Source: Verrucomicrobiales bacterium
GTDB lineage: Bacteria > Verrucomicrobiota > Verrucomicrobiia > Verrucomicrobiales > DEV007
Direction of reading: 5' to 3'
NCBI GenBank assembly: GCA_028047635.1
Contig: JAOFXR010000032.1
Coordinates: 1 to 33,033 of the forward strand
Length of the DNA stretch: 33,033 bases
The notes under the pieces are model-generated. The model was not told the origin of the DNA. It did not search any database and worked only from the letters and a program-made list of their open reading frames with translations. The translations under genes and the position numbers were made by a program. This document shows, piece by piece, positions 19,409 to 33,033 of the stretch (position 1 is the first letter of the stretch; each line of letters starts with the position of its first letter).

Positions 19409-20419
19409 TCACTCGATTTCGCTGAGCCTGGTTTTGGCTTCGGCTTGTGCTTCTGCCATGACACTCTTCAGCGATACGGAGGCACCTGACTGACGTTTGC
19501 TTTCGTCAGCCGCTTCCATGAAGGCGTAAATTTCAAGTGTCTCAGCGGGATCGACGGGGAGGGTGCCGGTTTCGAAATACTTAGCGATTTCGACGACGAG
19601 AGGTGCATAGCCCGGATAGGCTCCGACTTCGCTGGTGCCTTTAGGACCTGTTGCAGTTCCCCCGTAGCCTTTGCGTTCTTCGAACACGCCGGTCCGGTCG
19701 CCACTCCAGGTTCCTGTTACCTGAATCATTCCCTCGTCGCTTGTTGAACGAACGACTGATTCGCAGCCGGTTCCCATCACGGTGAAAAGTGATTCCACTC
19801 CGTGAATGCCATACCAGAACAGGTCTGGGTGGGTTTTCTCAAGCGAAGCAGGGCTTCCCGTTTGGGCTTTGGTCACCGTGCCGATTGAACCAGCACGAAC
19901 GAGTTGAGAATTAGGCCCGTAGCGAAGCGATGAAGAAGAAAAGAGTGGGACATCGTATTTCTCCGACGCTTTAAAAATTAGAATTGCATCTGTGAGCGAC
20001 CCCGCAATTGGCTTGTCGATGAAAACGCGTTTGCCCGCTTTGAGCACGGGAATGACCTGTTCGAGATGGGGGCGGCCATCATTTGTTTCCAGAAGAACGG
20101 CATCCACTTTTTCGAGTAGCGCGGGAATGGAGTCTACAATTTCAACGCCATAGGTATGAATTTCTTCCGTGTATTTAGGAACGCGGCTTGTGCTCGATTC
20201 GATGTCAGCGCTTCCTTGTGGATAGGCGGCGACTACTTTGCAATTGGCAAGTGCCCCCTCCGCAGCGGGATCGTTCATTGTCTTCGTGAAGGCGATCACA
20301 TGTCCTGTGTCGAGCCCGATGATGCCTACTTTGATCTCTTCCGCTTTTACCGAAAGGGAAAAAGAGAAGGCTCCAGATAATAGCGCTACGCAGAGTAGGG
20401 GGAAAGATGAATGCTTCAT
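19409..20419 (-). CDS. Exported Gfo/Idh/MocA-family oxidoreductase
   Basis: A 336-residue NAD(P)-dependent oxidoreductase-like protein. From the ATG at 20419 there is a clear signal peptide (PLLCVALLSGAFSFSLSVKA); the frame is open 11 codons upstream, but that adds only a poor leader. The Rossmann start is VGIIGLDTGHVIAF, lacking a classic GxGxxG. The 'V-L-L-E-T-N-D-G-R-P-H-L-E' and VFIDKPIAG motifs correspond to the family's 'vD...p...H' and 'EKP' elements. The catalytic-region HGVESLFTVMG fits too. Exported members are common in Verrucomicrobia and Planctomycetes and are usually linked to sugar breakdown. The UMP/CMP kinase gene lies 92 bases upstream on the same strand. Confidence 0.85.
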   Translation of the reverse strand: MKHSSFPLLCVALLSGAFSFSLSVKAEEIKVGIIGLDTGHVIAFTKTMNDPAAEGALANCKVVAAYPQGSADIESSTSRVPKYTEEIHTYGVEIVDSIPALLEKVDAVLLETNDGRPHLEQVIPVLKAGKRVFIDKPIAGSLTDAILIFKASEKYDVPLFSSSSLRYGPNSQLVRAGSIGTVTKAQTGSPASLEKTHPDLFWYGIHGVESLFTVMGTGCESVVRSTSDEGMIQVTGTWSGDRTGVFEERKGYGGTATGPKGTSEVGAYPGYAPLVVEIAKYFETGTLPVDPAETLEIYAFMEAADESKRQSGASVSLKSVMAEAQAEAKTRLSEIE

Positions 20420-20511
20420 GGTTGAGGATAGTGTCATGAACCGTTCAGTCATGTCACCTCGAAGCCTCGGCGCAATCCTGTCCCCCCCAATGCAGTTTAA
20501 CCCTGCCCGGA

Positions 20512-21552
20512 TTACTTCTTCGGATAGGGGCGCAGTCCCAGCAACACCTCAGCTCTTTCGGTGAGAGGTTTGGCAGCCAGTTCGCTATCGGTGTGCTCCG
20601 CCAGTTGGTCGGCGACGAGAGAATAGACCGCTTCACGCCCCTGGCTGGTATCGACTTCAACACACTTTTCCCGGGACCTGAAGAGCTCAACGATGGGCAG
20701 CGTCTCCGCTTTGAAGGTGTCGAATCTCAGCTTGAGACTTTCTACGTTGTCGTCGCTTCTCCCTGACCATTTGGCGCGGCCGAGAATACGTTTCTCGAGG
20801 ATTTCGAAAGGACATTCAAAATAGAGCATTTTAGGAAGCTCCGCCTCTTCTGTAAATATCTCCCGCCAGGCTTCGAGGTTGGCAGGGGAGCGGGGGAACC
20901 CGTCGAGAAGGAAATTATTCTTTCCCGTTGTCCGAGTGAGTCGTTCCATCTCTGATTTGAGCAACGTCACCATGATTTCGTTAGGAACCAATTTTCCCGC
21001 GGTTATGTGCTCTTCGATAGTGGCCGCGATTGCACCGCCTGACTCGCACTCCGCCCGGAGTAGTTCTCCTGTGGATAGATGGCTCCATCCGAGTTGAGAC
21101 TCAGCTAGTTCGCACATGGTTCCTTTTCCCGCTCCGGGGCCGCCAAGGACGAAGATCACATTTGGAGGCGGGCAGGGAAGCCTTGGATCGTAATGGTGCA
21201 GTACGACTTTCGGCGCAGGGGCAACTCCCTTTTTGTAGACGTGCCACTCAATGTCAGTGGGCGGCATCTCATCATCACCGTTGGTGTCATAAGCGAGGTG
21301 CCCATCAAGGCGACAGATTCGCCAGGAGGTATAGCTGTTGGAAAAAGAGAGGGCCGGGCTTCTCTCTGATTTTCCATCAGCACGATCCCACGCCATTTTT
21401 TCATTCCAGTATCCGAGGCTCGATAAGCTACCTGATTCAGACTCGGCGGGTGGGGCGGTTGAAGGAACGAAGAGTCCGTCGACTTCGGGTAGACCGGCTC
21501 CGGACACTTCGATAAAGAAAGTGTTAGGCTTGAGCTCGTTTGTTTTAGACAT
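20512..21552 (-). CDS. Eukaryote-like UMP/CMP kinase fused to an N-terminal module
   Basis: A 346-residue protein. Residues about 130-320 are a nucleoside monophosphate kinase: Walker A GGPGAGKGT (137-145), HLSTGELLRAE (158-168), DGFPR (217-221), and the short LID 'K-W-S-G-R-S-D-D-N-V-E-S-L-K-L-R' (about 261-276). LVPNEIMVTLLKSEM and the short LID resemble eukaryotic UMP/CMP kinases more than bacterial Adk or Cmk. Residues 10-120 are a separate beta-rich module with 'E-V-S-G-A-G-L-P-E-V-D-G-L-F-V-P', 'Y-W-N-E-K', 'S-W-R-I-C', 'M-P-P', 'E-W-H-V-Y-K-K-G-V-A-P-A-P-K-V-V', a pattern I associate from memory with proteins of marine microalgae. The start at 21552 avoids overlap with the gene upstream. 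No signal peptide. Confidence 0.85.
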   Translation of the reverse strand: MSKTNELKPNTFFIEVSGAGLPEVDGLFVPSTAPPAESESGSLSSLGYWNEKMAWDRADGKSERSPALSFSNSYTSWRICRLDGHLAYDTNGDDEMPPTDIEWHVYKKGVAPAPKVVLHHYDPRLPCPPPNVIFVLGGPGAGKGTMCELAESQLGWSHLSTGELLRAECESGGAIAATIEEHITAGKLVPNEIMVTLLKSEMERLTRTTGKNNFLLDGFPRSPANLEAWREIFTEEAELPKMLYFECPFEILEKRILGRAKWSGRSDDNVESLKLRFDTFKAETLPIVELFRSREKCVEVDTSQGREAVYSLVADQLAEHTDSELAAKPLTERAEVLLGLRPYPKK

Positions 21553-21622: not shown

Positions 21623-24601
21623 CTATTTGCTGAGGGGCTTTGTCGTTCGCAGATAGAGAAAGAGATCACGAACGTCTTCTCTTCGCAGAGAATCTAGAAG
21701 ACCGGGGGGCATTAGCGAGACGTTGGAAGTCTGCCGGGTTTTGACTTCACTGGTATCGATTCGTTCGACCTGTCCCACTTGTCGAAAAGTGATCACCTGG
21801 TCGTTCTCTTCAACCACATTGCCCACGAGGGTTCGGCCGTTGTTCAGGGTGAGGGTGACGAGGCGGTAATCGGGGGATACATCCTCTGACGGGAACAGCA
21901 CGTTGATCAGGAAGTAGTCGAGATCAGCGCGTCCTGAACCGGTGAGATTGGGGCCGATTAGGCCTCCTTCCTCGTAGAGTTGGTGGCAGGCTGAGCAGAC
22001 TCGACGAAATACTTCGCGCCCGTCAACGGCATCACCACTGGCGAGATAGTTTTCAGAGAGTCGTTTCTTCCATGTCGCAATTTGGGCCGCTTTTTCAGAC
22101 GCCCCTTTTTCTTCTATGCCGATGAATTTGGTGAAAGCTTTTTTCTGCGACGTTGTCATCATGATCTGAAGCGCTACGTAGGTGGGAATCCGCTCCTTTG
22201 CGATGTCGCTTTTAAACAGGGCTTCAACGAGGGCATCGGCAAAATTTTCCCTCGATGCGAGGGTTTCGAGAATGGCCGTAATTTGCTCATTCGTGGTTTC
22301 CTCTTCAGAGAGAAGCGCAAGAAGCCGACTCGCTGAGCCTTCGGTTGCGAATACGCTTTCCGCGCGAATCGCCTCGAGAGTCAGTTCGGGGAATTTAAGC
22401 GCCTCCGGCAGTTTTCCTGCGATCACCGGCGATTCTGCAGAGATGAGCATCCTGAAATAATCGAGCCGTTTGCTGTCCGGTGTTGTTTCCGCAAAAATTC
22501 GTTCTGCTATTTCTTCTTCACCGGAGGGATCGCCGAAGCGAAGGGCGAGTTGAAATGCCTGTGTCAGGATCTCGGGATCTTTTTTTCCTTTTAAAATGGA
22601 GAAGAGATTTCTCCATTCCGCAGGCATGTCCGCGCGCATGGGAAGTGCTTCGAGCAAACCGGTGAGCATGGCGTGAAGTGCCTGGGTCTCAATCTCTTTG
22701 CTTTGCAGCGCAGTGACGACGGCGGGGAGCGAGTCAGCGGTAACGGCTCGTTTTGTGATCGCCTGACTGAGCCATGGATGTCCGGGTTTCAGGGCCACTT
22801 GCATTGCCCGGGCGGGATTGGTTTCGACAAGTGGTTCAAAGCCGTACCAGCGCATCAAAGCGAAATTGCGATCATCTTTGCTGATGGTGATGCGCGCCAG
22901 CGCCTCGGCGGCGTTCCAGCGAAGTTCAATGGGAATGCGCTGCAGCAGGGCTGCTATGCGATAAAGAACAGCCGAATCCGTTTCCTTCTGAATGATATTT
23001 TCTAACCATATCACCTGTTTGAGGGATGGGGTATTTTCGGTGAATGTCAGGGTGAGAAGGTGAGTTCGGACAGGCGCGCGCTTTTCTGAATCGAAGGAGG
23101 CATCGTAGATTGGCTGAACCCAGTTCTCGGCAGGCAGCAGGGCATGCAGTGCTTGAACGGCACTGATCGCATCGGGAACGGGAGCTGTTTTAGCTTTCTC
23201 TAAGAGAAGCTTTCTAGATTCATCGCTCACCAGCGTTGCGGCATGATTGGGTTGGTTGCCGCGCTCATGCAGGTTCCGCAGTGCGTGATGCCGCCACCAG
23301 ACGTTTTCGTGAAACAGCAAGGCGATGAGCGTTTCATTGCTCATTGAGGCTACGTCGAATGGCGTCTTCTCAGCTCGATTGCCATACCAGACTTCGTAGA
23401 GTCTTCCGCTGCTGCGATGGATCCCGTCTCTGTCGTGGCATTCTCCCAGGTCGGTCCACTCGGCCATCATCATTTCCCCGTAGGGCCCCTGACAAAGGTC
23501 GACGGCTCGAAACCACGGGCTGGTACTGCGCAAAAAATCTTCGCCGTGACTTGCGGTCCAGGCCGATTCTTTACGGCTCAGGTGCTCCATATTGAGGCGT
23601 TGGCCCAATACGTTGCTGAAAAATACTTTTCCGCGGTATTTGTCGGGCCATGCGTTGGCCTGATAGATCATCATGCCGCAGTGGGAATGGCCCCCGCCGG
23701 CCTCATCGTTTCCGGTGAAATCTTTACGTCCGGTTTGTCCCCCTGACCAATGTCGGTGATCGGAGGTGGGTTCCATCATTGCGTAGCTATGGGCGCCTGA
23801 ACCCTTTCCTGAGCCCTGATCGTAACGCGCACCGGGAACGAGGTGCCAGAAATGGTCGATAACACTCGTCGTAATAAATCCTTCGCCCTCCTCATTCCAG
23901 GCCAGGCCCCAGGGATTTACGGTTCCCTCCGCCCAGACTTCGAAACGTGTTTTTGAAGGGTGGTAGCGCCAGATCGAGCAACTGAGTGGTGTGCGCTCGT
24001 CATCGGGTGTGCCGGGTTTGCCTACCTTGGATGGTTTCTTAATTCCATGTCGTCCATAGAGCCAGCCGTCCGGCCCCCATTTCAGACCATTGAAAAAATT
24101 ATGTTCTGCCTCGGTGCTCCAGCCATCGAGGACTATGGTCGGATCTCCATCCACCACGTCATCCCGATCCGAGTCGGGAATGAAAAGTAGTTCGGGTGCA
24201 TCGCAAAGCCACACACCTCCGTGTCCGATCTGAAAACCGCTCGTGTGATTTCCCTGATCCCAAAAGATGGTGCGTTTGTCGAATTCGCCGTCGTTGTCGG
24301 TGTCTTCAAAAATGACCAAGCGGTCTTTGCCGCTGCGTTTCCACTCGATGTAAGAAAAGCTTTCAAGGACCCAAAGGCGACCACGGTCATCGTATTCGAT
24401 CGCGATGGGTTGGGCTACGTCAGGTTCTCCTGCGAACAGGGAAATGTGGAAGCCCTCCGGAACTGTGATGAGTTCCAATGACTCAGTAGGCGAGGGAGGG
24501 GCACTGGAGGGGTTCTGTGTATCGACAATGCCGTCAGGCAGTTGGCCAAACGATTGGACGGTGAGAAGTGCAAACAGCGCAAAGGAGGTGAAAATTCTCA
24601 T
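21623..24601 (-). CDS. PVC-type membrane-bound dehydrogenase/heme-binding CxxCH protein
   Basis: A 992-residue exported protein of a family restricted largely to Verrucomicrobia and Planctomycetes. In order: signal peptide (1-19); a PQQ-dehydrogenase-like beta-propeller (about 35-420) with 'V-P-E-G-F-H-I-S-L-F-A-G-E-P-D', 'D-D-R-G-R-L-W-V', NFFNGLKWGPDGWLYGRHG and several HxH/GGGHSHCG elements; a HEAT-like alpha-solenoid (about 430-830); then a cytochrome c domain with the heme motif CSACH at 869-873 and the sixth-ligand region LMPPGLLDSL. The FITTSVIDHFWHLVPGARY segment is typical. It probably oxidises a sugar-like substrate and passes electrons to the periplasmic chain. The kinase gene is 70 bases downstream. 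Confidence 0.93.
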   Translation of the reverse strand: MRIFTSFALFALLTVQSFGQLPDGIVDTQNPSSAPPSPTESLELITVPEGFHISLFAGEPDVAQPIAIEYDDRGRLWVLESFSYIEWKRSGKDRLVIFEDTDNDGEFDKRTIFWDQGNHTSGFQIGHGGVWLCDAPELLFIPDSDRDDVVDGDPTIVLDGWSTEAEHNFFNGLKWGPDGWLYGRHGIKKPSKVGKPGTPDDERTPLSCSIWRYHPSKTRFEVWAEGTVNPWGLAWNEEGEGFITTSVIDHFWHLVPGARYDQGSGKGSGAHSYAMMEPTSDHRHWSGGQTGRKDFTGNDEAGGGHSHCGMMIYQANAWPDKYRGKVFFSNVLGQRLNMEHLSRKESAWTASHGEDFLRSTSPWFRAVDLCQGPYGEMMMAEWTDLGECHDRDGIHRSSGRLYEVWYGNRAEKTPFDVASMSNETLIALLFHENVWWRHHALRNLHERGNQPNHAATLVSDESRKLLLEKAKTAPVPDAISAVQALHALLPAENWVQPIYDASFDSEKRAPVRTHLLTLTFTENTPSLKQVIWLENIIQKETDSAVLYRIAALLQRIPIELRWNAAEALARITISKDDRNFALMRWYGFEPLVETNPARAMQVALKPGHPWLSQAITKRAVTADSLPAVVTALQSKEIETQALHAMLTGLLEALPMRADMPAEWRNLFSILKGKKDPEILTQAFQLALRFGDPSGEEEIAERIFAETTPDSKRLDYFRMLISAESPVIAGKLPEALKFPELTLEAIRAESVFATEGSASRLLALLSEEETTNEQITAILETLASRENFADALVEALFKSDIAKERIPTYVALQIMMTTSQKKAFTKFIGIEEKGASEKAAQIATWKKRLSENYLASGDAVDGREVFRRVCSACHQLYEEGGLIGPNLTGSGRADLDYFLINVLFPSEDVSPDYRLVTLTLNNGRTLVGNVVEENDQVITFRQVGQVERIDTSEVKTRQTSNVSLMPPGLLDSLRREDVRDLFLYLRTTKPLSK

Positions 24602-30307: not shown

Positions 30308-31981
30308 TTACAGGACATCGATGATTGAGATAGCATGCTTGATCTGCTCGCGAACCGCTTCGTTCGGCTCGTGCACATAGGCTTCTTTGAGGAAGCTTGC
30401 TGCTTCGAAGAAATCCAATTGCACCGCGGCAGCGACAGCAGCGCTTCGAATTGCCTTTTTGGAGTCCTGTAATAAGGCGAGCAAATCGGCATGGCTCTTA
30501 AAGCGTCGCGGATTCGTTTTTATGATTTCTTTGAACATGGCGACTCTTTTGTCGGGTGCCTCCGAGGAATTCAGCATCAGTTTTAACCCACTGTCTGTTT
30601 TCTTGTTTCGACTTGTATCATACATGGCTTCACTGCTGTAAAGATTTGGTCTAACATAGTGAGAACTGTAGGGGACGCTATCCTTGCCAAGCGCCCAATA
30701 AATCATGCGGGGTGCCATCCATCGCATTCCAGGCGTTGCTTCCGGATGGGATGAGCAAAGCACCACCTTGCCGTCTTTCCGGTTACCTATCATCAGATTG
30801 ACTTTGCCCGGCATAATTCCTTTGGCTTCGGGATTCTTGTGATGAACATCACTGGCGAAATGTTGGAGCACGACGTAATTTTCGACCGCAGGGACTTCTT
30901 TAATGCCAAGTAGAGGTCCCTGATTGTAGGCATAAAAAATTTTGTCGGCGCCTTCGTATTCGGGAAGAAGGCGCTTCGCGTATTCGGTGTTCTCCAACTC
31001 CACCATCGCGGCGCCACGAGCCCAACCCTTATTCTCATGATCGGGATGAATGCCTCCCAAAAGATTCAGTGTGCTCTTTGATTTTCCTCCGGTTCGCTCG
31101 GCCCCTGAGTAGGCACCCGCGCAAATTCCGACATAGCCACCACCGCTCTCGACAAACGATTCCACCTTTTTAGTTCCCTCCGGGCCTAGATCACGGATCT
31201 GACCTGCGCCGCTGCCTCCCGGTAAAACGATTGCGTCCAACTCGTCCAGTATTCCATCCTGAACTTGCGATGAAACGATTCCGATCGAACGGATTTCCGG
31301 ATCGATTCGCATCGCATAGATAGCGGCATTCGACATCGACTTTCCAACGCGATAGATGCCGACATTGATTTTTTCGTCGTCACGGAGGTAGAGGTTGACA
31401 GATGCGTTTTGTCGCAGCTCTCCGATGATGCCTCTCGCGAGAGATGAAATGGCGAAGTCTTTATCTTTCGTTGCCTTCATCGCTTCTCTGTGGAGAGCGG
31501 TAAGGGTACTCGAATTCTTTGTGGGATCGCAAACATCGAAGACTATGCCGTTCGCCGACTTTACGCGCTTCTCTGCTGCCTGCGTTGCCCCGGTGTATTC
31601 CTTGAATGCAATCGCCCGAATTCCCTCTGGGTAGTTTGTTACCTCTGAACTCACATCTAGATACGAAGGGGCCAAATGATTGAAAATTGCATGTGGATAG
31701 TGCCCTGTTAGGAGGTTGATTTCAGCGATCAGGTTCCGGGCGAAGAGCTTTACTTCGCTGGTTCTTGGCGTGCCTTCGTCCGATGAATTCAAAGGATTCA
31801 TCGTGCCTCCATCTGGAACCAGAATCAGAATGGGGGCATTCCCTTCAATTGATTCCGTGTAGCGGCGTTGACCGTAGGTGCTTTTTCCAGGGGGCGTATC
31901 CGCTTCTGCGAAAACCATTGCACCTGCTAATCCAAAGCAGAAAATAGTGATGAGGCCAAATTGGCTGCTGGGAGATTTCAT
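30308..31981 (-). CDS. Exported protein: FGase-like domain + BPL_N amidotransferase-like domain + alpha-helical tail
   Basis: A 557-residue protein with three parts. A signal peptide (1-25) precedes residues about 48-195, which resemble an N-formylglutamate amidohydrolase fold (ILILVPDGGTMNP like 'i.vPHgG...P'; YPHAIFNHLAPSYLDV like 'NrlhRs.lDlNR'; GIVFDVCDP like 'glliDiHg'), with metal-ligand positions apparently replaced. Residues about 205-430 are a BPL_N/class I amidotransferase-like domain with PGGSGAG, nucleophile Cys287 in GGGYVGICAGAY, and His412 in SSHPE. The tail (about 470-557) is helical and HEAT-like. It is the second of two tandem relatives, 53 bases after the first. The substrate is not known; the fusion suggests hydrolysis of an amide. 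Confidence 0.78.
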   Translation of the reverse strand: MKSPSSQFGLITIFCFGLAGAMVFAEADTPPGKSTYGQRRYTESIEGNAPILILVPDGGTMNPLNSSDEGTPRTSEVKLFARNLIAEINLLTGHYPHAIFNHLAPSYLDVSSEVTNYPEGIRAIAFKEYTGATQAAEKRVKSANGIVFDVCDPTKNSSTLTALHREAMKATKDKDFAISSLARGIIGELRQNASVNLYLRDDEKINVGIYRVGKSMSNAAIYAMRIDPEIRSIGIVSSQVQDGILDELDAIVLPGGSGAGQIRDLGPEGTKKVESFVESGGGYVGICAGAYSGAERTGGKSKSTLNLLGGIHPDHENKGWARGAAMVELENTEYAKRLLPEYEGADKIFYAYNQGPLLGIKEVPAVENYVVLQHFASDVHHKNPEAKGIMPGKVNLMIGNRKDGKVVLCSSHPEATPGMRWMAPRMIYWALGKDSVPYSSHYVRPNLYSSEAMYDTSRNKKTDSGLKLMLNSSEAPDKRVAMFKEIIKTNPRRFKSHADLLALLQDSKKAIRSAAVAAAVQLDFFEAASFLKEAYVHEPNEAVREQIKHAISIIDVL

Positions 31982-32034: not shown

Positions 32035-33033
32035 TTACTCCAAATGCTGCGCGCCCCAACGAATGGCCTGTATAATAATCGGATGCAGCTCGGGCGTCAG
32101 CTCCGGATGAGGGCTTACCGAAACAACCCGCCCCTTGCCGAACCGTCCCGATATGATGGCCGGCGTGTTAATCATTGTTCCTTTTTGCTTTTCCCAGAGG
32201 CTGTTTTCACTTCTGAACCAGGCCAGCACTTGGTAGTCTTCGAGGGCCTCTGAACCGTGTCGCGTGATGATCGGTCCGTTCGCGTATCGCACAATGAAGT
32301 TTTTAGGAATCCCTTCGCTGCCGAAAAGGGCCTCTCCCTTGGCGGTCAGTTCAATGTCTACTGCGGTTTCGGGCCCTCGATACCATAGATTCTTCTTTCC
32401 TTTCTCCGGGATATCCACTGTCCCGGTGAACGCACGTGAATCAATCAAGTCGAGCGACCATCGGTAATTGGCCGAACATAGATAGGCTCCTGCACAAACG
32501 CCAACATAGCCTCCGCCTGATTCAATGAACTCTCTGACGGAAGTGCGCCCCTGCTCGCCGATGGCGCCACCTTGTTTGGATCCGCTCCCGCCGGGAAACA
32601 CGACAACGTCGAACTGTTTGAGTATCTCTGACTTCATCGCGTTAGGTCCGATATGGAAAAGTGAGAGGTCTGGCGCCTCATCAATCAGGTTCATCAATTT
32701 GAAACTGCTTGGGCCGGTTCCTACGCCGTCGAACAACGCGACTTGCAGTTTGTCGTTTGATTCTGGAACTGCGAGTTGTTGCGAACAATCACCGTCGATC
32801 ACTCCAATGTGATTCAGGAGCACATTCGTCATTGCCCGGTGTTGCCGTGTCCGAATGGACATGGGTTGCTCATTGTAGGTCGTTTCAAGGATGAGCGATT
32901 CAGCGCCCATCACGTTGATGCATGCTCTCGTCAGCCCGGTGCTCACGGGGCCGCGGCGGAGCATCGAGAAATATTTCGCGGGATCTGCCACCGTGGCATC
33001 GGCTGCGGCGACCATTTTCTGGACGAGAGGATC
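32035..33033 (-). CDS. M14-carboxypeptidase-like + BPL_N amidotransferase-like protein, N-terminus cut by window edge
   Basis: At least 332 residues; the frame is open through base 33033, so the start lies outside the window and the ATG at 33015 is probably internal. The N-terminal visible part ('A-C-I-N-V-M-G-A-E-S-L-I-L-E-T-T-Y') followed by 'S-I-R-T-R-Q-H-R-A-M-T-N-V-L-L' resembles the end of a zinc carboxypeptidase (M14) domain with its general-base Glu. The rest is a BPL_N domain: FPGGSGSKQGGAIGEQG, Cys in GGGYVGVCAGAY and a late SPHPELTP His. It shares this with the next gene, which lies 53 bases downstream on the same strand, so the two form a tandem pair. Localisation cannot be judged without the N-terminus. 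Confidence 0.78.
   Translation of the reverse strand, partial: DPLVQKMVAAADATVADPAKYFSMLRRGPVSTGLTRACINVMGAESLILETTYNEQPMSIRTRQHRAMTNVLLNHIGVIDGDCSQQLAVPESNDKLQVALFDGVGTGPSSFKLMNLIDEAPDLSLFHIGPNAMKSEILKQFDVVVFPGGSGSKQGGAIGEQGRTSVREFIESGGGYVGVCAGAYLCSANYRWSLDLIDSRAFTGTVDIPEKGKKNLWYRGPETAVDIELTAKGEALFGSEGIPKNFIVRYANGPIITRHGSEALEDYQVLAWFRSENSLWEKQKGTMINTPAIISGRFGKGRVVSVSPHPELTPELHPIIIQAIRWGAQHLE

Follow-up and report, generated by a model that had tools for sequence, protein, structure and literature searches.

The window, i.e., the entire stretch of 33,033 nucleotides from the Verrucomicrobiales bacterium contig JAOFXR010000032.1 that we analyzed, encodes one 346-residue protein at positions 20512–21552 of the minus strand, and this open frame is real. 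The protein joins a predicted all-beta N-terminal module to a nucleoside monophosphate kinase of the eukaryotic type that acts on uridine and cytidine monophosphate (UMP/CMP kinase). On balance, we read the fusion as a probable supplementary kinase of pyrimidine nucleotide salvage that has spread horizontally and carries a ligand-binding or regulatory beta module. The gene is organized as follows.

20512–21552, minus strand: whole gene for the 346-residue fusion protein, with the ATG at 21552 and the stop codon at 20512–20514.
21169–21522, minus strand: N-terminal module, residues 11–128, predicted all-beta; 48 of its 118 positions do not vary across 76 sequences.
20602–21168, minus strand: nucleoside monophosphate kinase domain of UMP/CMP type, residues 129–317.
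21118–21144, minus strand: P-loop GGPGAGKGT, residues 137–145, with Lys143 aligned to Dictyostelium Lys19.
20878–20880, minus strand: Asn225, aligned to Asn97 of the Dictyostelium UMP/CMP kinase and Asn in 76 of 76 fusions.
20746–20766, minus strand: short LID segment SGRSDDN, residues 263–269, which includes Arg265.
20515–20601, minus strand: C-terminal tail, residues 318–346, with a mean pairwise identity of 0.654, below that of either module or kinase.

A longer alternative with a GTG start at 21669 is present; a methionine is aligned to the ATG at 21552 in 67 of 76 relatives, which supports the latter start. The short motifs that a preliminary description of this gene had named, i.e., HLSTGELLRAE, VPNEI, SGRSDDN, GAGLPEVDGLF, YWN, SWRI and GVAPAPKVV, are all present in the translation. 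Chance is excluded, with a Pfam match of the kinase and relatives of the front part in 89 stretches of DNA (see below).

Our comparisons support the assignment of the kinase half to the eukaryotic UMP/CMP type, as the preliminary description had proposed, with a caveat on bacterial Adk given below. Pfam ADK (PF00406) matched residues 135–294 with 130.8 bits (gathering cut-off 26.8; whole-protein expectation value (E) 5.8e-38). The top NCBIfam model was TIGR01359 (UMP/CMP kinase) with 185.3 bits. Adenylate kinase models scored lower among the matches listed (TIGR01360, 135.2 bits; TIGR01351, 131.2 bits), the bacterial Cmk model TIGR00017 reached only 16 bits and thus not its cut-off of 135.55, and TIGR02075 (PyrH) was not among the 25 NCBIfam families listed for the fusion protein. 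The kinase shares 44%, 43% and 41% sequence identity with the UMP/CMP kinases from human, yeast and Dictyostelium, respectively, and less with AK1 (35–36%) and with the 42 bacterial kinases compared (27–37%).

At the positions of Dictyostelium Lys19, Arg42, Arg93, Asn97, Arg131, Arg137, Asp139 and Arg148, identical residues were found in the window protein and in 76 of 76 aligned rows. We take Asn97 to contact the pyrimidine base and assume the roles of the arginines from what is generally held for this enzyme class. The literature searched on the base-contact residue did not mention Asn97 among the matches listed. Human AK1, yeast Ura6 and four bacterial kinases in the same alignment have Gln at this position, and Dictyostelium Ala37 is replaced by Thr161, as in AK1 and three of four bacterial rows.

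In a 56-row tree, the fusions and three UMP/CMP kinases shared one side of a branch with a support of 99/98 (fusions alone, 100/100), and an earlier 59-row tree gave the same group at 99/91. As eukaryotic rows the trees contained the three UMP/CMP kinases and two AK1 sequences only; five of the 42 bacterial kinase rows were dropped from the first tree and eight from the second, and for both trees the program warned of long branches that meet. Bacterial Adk formed a separate clade in the best tree, but the approximately unbiased (AU) test did not reject a placement of fusions and bacterial Adk in one clade (p 0.163). The TIGR01359 score stays below the curated cut-off of 207.6. The stem of the fusion clade is moreover long, with 1.27 changes per column, and its exact place among the UMP/CMP kinases is not fixed. 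All three observations would fit a kinase half of bacterial origin, derived from a short-LID adenylate kinase, whose resemblance to the eukaryotic enzymes goes back to an ancient common ancestor or to a transfer from bacteria into eukaryotes. We regard this origin as unlikely, albeit as the most serious of the alternatives, because the 99/98 branch and the Asn instead of Gln at the base position speak against it, as do two score gaps. Among 200 genomes from the phylum of a Halomonas carrier (G480), the two fusions scored 364 and 348 bits, whereas no other kinase there exceeded 104 bits, and among 199 genomes from the phylum of G467, non-fused kinases reached at most 149 bits with TIGR01359. 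This model exceeded its cut-off in none of the 56, 288 and 199 genomes scanned.

The preliminary description had called it unusual for a bacterium to acquire or donate such a fusion. The fusion is no peculiarity of one bacterium; it is a family distributed patchily across eight bacterial phyla, as labeled by record titles. A scan of 84,980 species genomes, which reaches close relatives only, found close relatives of the module encoded in 89 stretches, and 80 of these were kept; the front part is an independent module, as had been claimed, and a conserved one. Behind the module, the whole kinase or a part of it was found in 91 of 92 loci, including three whose frames are broken, and the remaining locus was cut at a contig end. 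Sixteen of the 92 loci (nine same-genome duplicates, four contig-end cuts and three broken frames) were left out of the set of 76 rows. By record title, these rows comprise Planctomycetota (38), Verrucomicrobiota (21), Pseudomonadota (7), Myxococcota (3), Hydrogenedentota (2) and one each from Lentisphaerota, Bdellovibrionota and Acidobacteriota, with two unlabeled. Many titles suggest a marine source; others include a bin from sheep gut and a plasmid from wastewater. Since the carriers include isolates by record title (Rhodopirellula, Stieleria, Adhaeretor, Rubripirellula and strain K23_9), binning error cannot explain the whole family.

Within single groups the fusion is rare. Among the relatives of the window's genome, 11 of 95 genomes carried it, and when genomes were drawn evenly from the phylum, 2 of 387 did; both counts include the window's genome itself. 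Ten full copies, the window's included, and one cut at a contig end were found in the 74 genomes of its family; here 22 genomes gave a match at E up to 1, 11 of these below 1e-9, and the other 11 were taken as chance. Six of 294 Planctomycetota genomes, the centre genome included, carry the fusion, all at E ≤2.1e-76, and nothing further appeared up to E 0.01 among the candidates scored, which numbered at most 14 per genome. The phylum of the Halomonas carrier gave 2 of 200 genomes, one of them this carrier itself, and plasmid records gave 1 of 72,556. With the module profile, the fusion was recovered in 19 of 19 carrier genomes; five extra matches there (E 0.097–0.78) were taken as chance. No credible intermediate matches occurred in the 19 carriers, the 294 Planctomycetota or the 74 family genomes.

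Two carriers hold additional pieces of the gene. On the Adhaeretor mobilis chromosome, the intact copy is preceded, about 450 bases upstream, by a 37-residue 5' piece of the gene (L039, 4438–4548) whose DNA is nearly the same over some 60 bases; this piece represents a partial duplication. In the Halomonas bin, the genome has an intact fusion and, in addition, a second copy of the module that is interrupted by a stop (G480:C2:37662–38045).

Phylum labels require 20 changes on the tree of the fusions (18 without the two unlabeled rows), compared with a minimum of 8 and a mean of 34 after shuffling. Three groups of mixed phyla were found at values of 96–99 in the Shimodaira–Hasegawa-like approximate likelihood ratio test (SH-aLRT), taken from a quick tree without bootstrap; these groups join L028 to L053, L030 to proteobacteria, and L059 to Hydrogenedentota and Lentisphaerota rows. 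From these groups, and from label changes above the minimum and below the shuffled mean, we conclude that the gene was transferred and in part inherited vertically, and horizontal transfer appears to be the main cause of its spread. The guanine–cytosine (GC) content of the gene tracks that of its flanks (r 0.876, n=79), and over 3081 pairs the median identity was 0.755 for amino acids versus 0.32 at four-fold sites, with synonymous sites near saturation. In most hosts, the gene has therefore been present for a long time and is subject to purifying selection, though L013, L077, L090 and the second Halomonas copy are broken. Few 400-base flanks were shared (in about 80 sequences, 26 similar segments on the upstream side and 13 on the downstream side, some pairs counted twice). 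Neither was there a widely shared neighbor, as the commonest neighbor cluster occurred in 15 of 81 loci. The kinship of the kinase and a bacterial family that is closed and nearly all-or-none would fit an import, possibly from a protist.

Conservation is higher in the module than in the kinase to which it is fused. Mean pairwise identity was 0.828 for the module versus 0.730 for the kinase, and the module value was the higher one in 2772 of 2850 pairs. Invariant polar module residues in 42 full-length rows include Glu39, Asp56, Arg57, Asp59, Arg64, Arg78, Arg81, Asp83 and His85. For the 130-residue front part of the window protein, Pfam gave only Thr_synth_N at E 0.19; over 59 module members it gave three families, each in one or two members (best E 0.037), which we took as chance. 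No NCBIfam family was matched by the module, and PHROGs gave over 29 members three families in one or two members each (best E 0.14). A PDB search with the module found no credible match (best E 1.8 with a profile, 1.2 with a single sequence), and its predicted all-beta fold had no clear structural match and none credible to any enzyme domain. Relatives of the module were found in neither 7 nor 21 candidate stretches from viral contigs. The full-length profile gave 4 loci from 25 such stretches, in the kinase part only and at 30–34% identity, and the matches in 15 records of a phage collection all started at residue 124 or later, none covering 80% of the query. The preliminary description had likened the elements of the module to microalgal proteins, and GAG, W-x-I and PAP patterns of this kind may occur in algal proteins; the likeness is presumptive. 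Two motif scans for this pattern gave four stretches each; four of the eight had a stop inside the match, one frame was too short to score, and the three scored reached ≤4.1 bits.

By binding a ligand or a partner, the module most likely directs or regulates the kinase. Its main alternative function is that of a second enzyme, e.g., one releasing or using CMP or UMP, in a bifunctional protein. A conservation exceeding that of the kinase and the many invariant polar residues would suit this, yet neither family nor fold comparisons gave a credible match with an enzyme domain, and conservation alone does not separate catalysis from binding, so that we find a second enzyme rather improbable. Still less probable is a module that merely stabilizes or dimerizes the kinase without any ligand. 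It would agree with a module never seen apart from the kinase in the 92 loci; a mere scaffold, however, is not expected to evolve more slowly than a catalytic domain, and solved structures from this kinase class, 1uke among them, are single domains that lack it.

Beyond a binding role, we tentatively consider that a protist-type fusion gene entered bacteria once and then spread over many phyla, and that selection acts more strongly on the undescribed beta module than on the kinase. What spreads may then be the module rather than the kinase, as a sensor or a second enzyme coupled to pyrimidine nucleotide supply.

Carriers possess other kinases for these nucleotides. Cmk was over its cut-off in 22 of 22 carriers examined; PyrH was matched in all 22 and over its cut-off in 21, with the best match in G005 covering positions 144–233 only. 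Separate Adk-like kinases were present in the same-genus carriers G005, G006, G007 and G024, and none was shown by the window's own incomplete genome (G000, contig C120, 63% complete), which is verrucomicrobial as judged from its same-genus relatives. As Cmk and PyrH matches stand beside it, the fusion enzyme is supplementary in the carriers examined. We propose that it would transfer phosphate from adenosine triphosphate (ATP) to UMP and CMP, and probably also to deoxycytidine monophosphate (dCMP), to give the diphosphates. Catalysis would proceed as in the eukaryotic UMP/CMP kinases, with the P-loop lysine, the conserved arginines and the short LID, and with Asn225 reading the pyrimidine base. 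The stably fused beta module would bind its ligand or partner to direct or regulate this reaction, and the enzyme would add to the Cmk, PyrH and Adk of the host. The gene presumably moves without fixed neighbors between unrelated bacteria and is then kept under strong purifying selection.

Upstream of the fusion gene in the window lies, on the same strand, a gene for a DUF7133 and cytochrome c protein (21623–24601), and downstream, also on the same strand, one for a GFO_IDH_MocA-type oxidoreductase (19409–20452). When four window genes were compared with 80 named loci, close versions of both neighbors stood beside the fusion only in the same-genus carrier L015 (75% and 82% identity); the other two matches were distant (26% and 34%). 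Patchy spread and a copy on a plasmid, with an integrase and an IS3 transposase nearby, could suggest an accessory of phage defense or of one particular mobile element, but we hold this to be very improbable, given no PADLOC match at E 0.01 for the fusion or four window neighbors, no widely shared neighbor or flank, the long residence indicated by near-saturated synonymous sites, and no module relative found in viral contigs. Elsewhere in the window, two adjacent minus-strand frames (30308–31981 and 32035–33015) have a PGGSG...GGYVGVCAGAY-like segment in common; we presume a resemblance to glutamine amidotransferase-like proteins.

In the literature searched, no description of a fusion of module and kinase was found among the matches listed. 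The available part of PMC3505017 does not contain the word kinase, and in that of PMC4807772 the kinases mentioned are protein kinases only.

The kinase class is already known, and the front domain is apparently undescribed. One annotation examined says just nucleoside monophosphate kinase, a name that hides the module. A module without a model in the searched libraries that is more constrained than its fused enzyme points to an unknown input into the pyrimidine nucleotide metabolism of the carriers. To our knowledge, there are few clear examples of enzymes of eukaryotic type that bacteria retain and exchange among themselves; the present case is directly testable because the family is closed and easily recognized.

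Among named proteins, WP_256497028.1 from Comamonas sp. C11 ('nucleoside monophosphate kinase') has a module 70% identical over 130 residues and a gene of fusion length, and its product name shows no N-terminal domain. On plasmid NZ_CP101744.1 (25819–26865), the Comamonas fusion stands in a same-strand row with genes for a SulP transporter, a universal stress protein, cfa, RF3, a diguanylate cyclase and a NUDIX protein, and two genes separate it from the integrase. The substrates of bacterial Cmk (TIGR00017) and PyrH (TIGR02075) are expected to overlap with those of the fusion. Bacterial Adk with long or short LID has the family PF00406 and the fold in common with the fusion but differs in its 27–37% identity, in having Gln where the fusion has the base-contact Asn (four rows) and in its separate clade in the best tree. 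Separately, we observed tandem double adenylate kinases of about 400 residues in L117–L126 (ten genomes of the phylum draw) and in L110 (G068, relatives search), whose second domain has GYPGSGRGSQ instead of the P-loop GPPGAGKGTQ and may be a non-catalytic half. The closest PDB sequence matches of the fusion kinase are the eukaryotic UMP/CMP kinases, i.e., human CMPK1 (1tev), Dictyostelium (1uke/1qf9) and yeast Ura6 (1uky), and the Dictyostelium enzyme is also its top structural match. The fusion has the short LID and the arginines in common with all of them, and the base-contact Asn in common with the human and slime mould enzymes. In contrast to these kinases, the fusion resides in bacteria, is extended by a module of about 118 residues at its N-terminus and by a tail at its C-terminus, and differs from the Dictyostelium enzyme by Thr instead of Ala at the Ala37 position.
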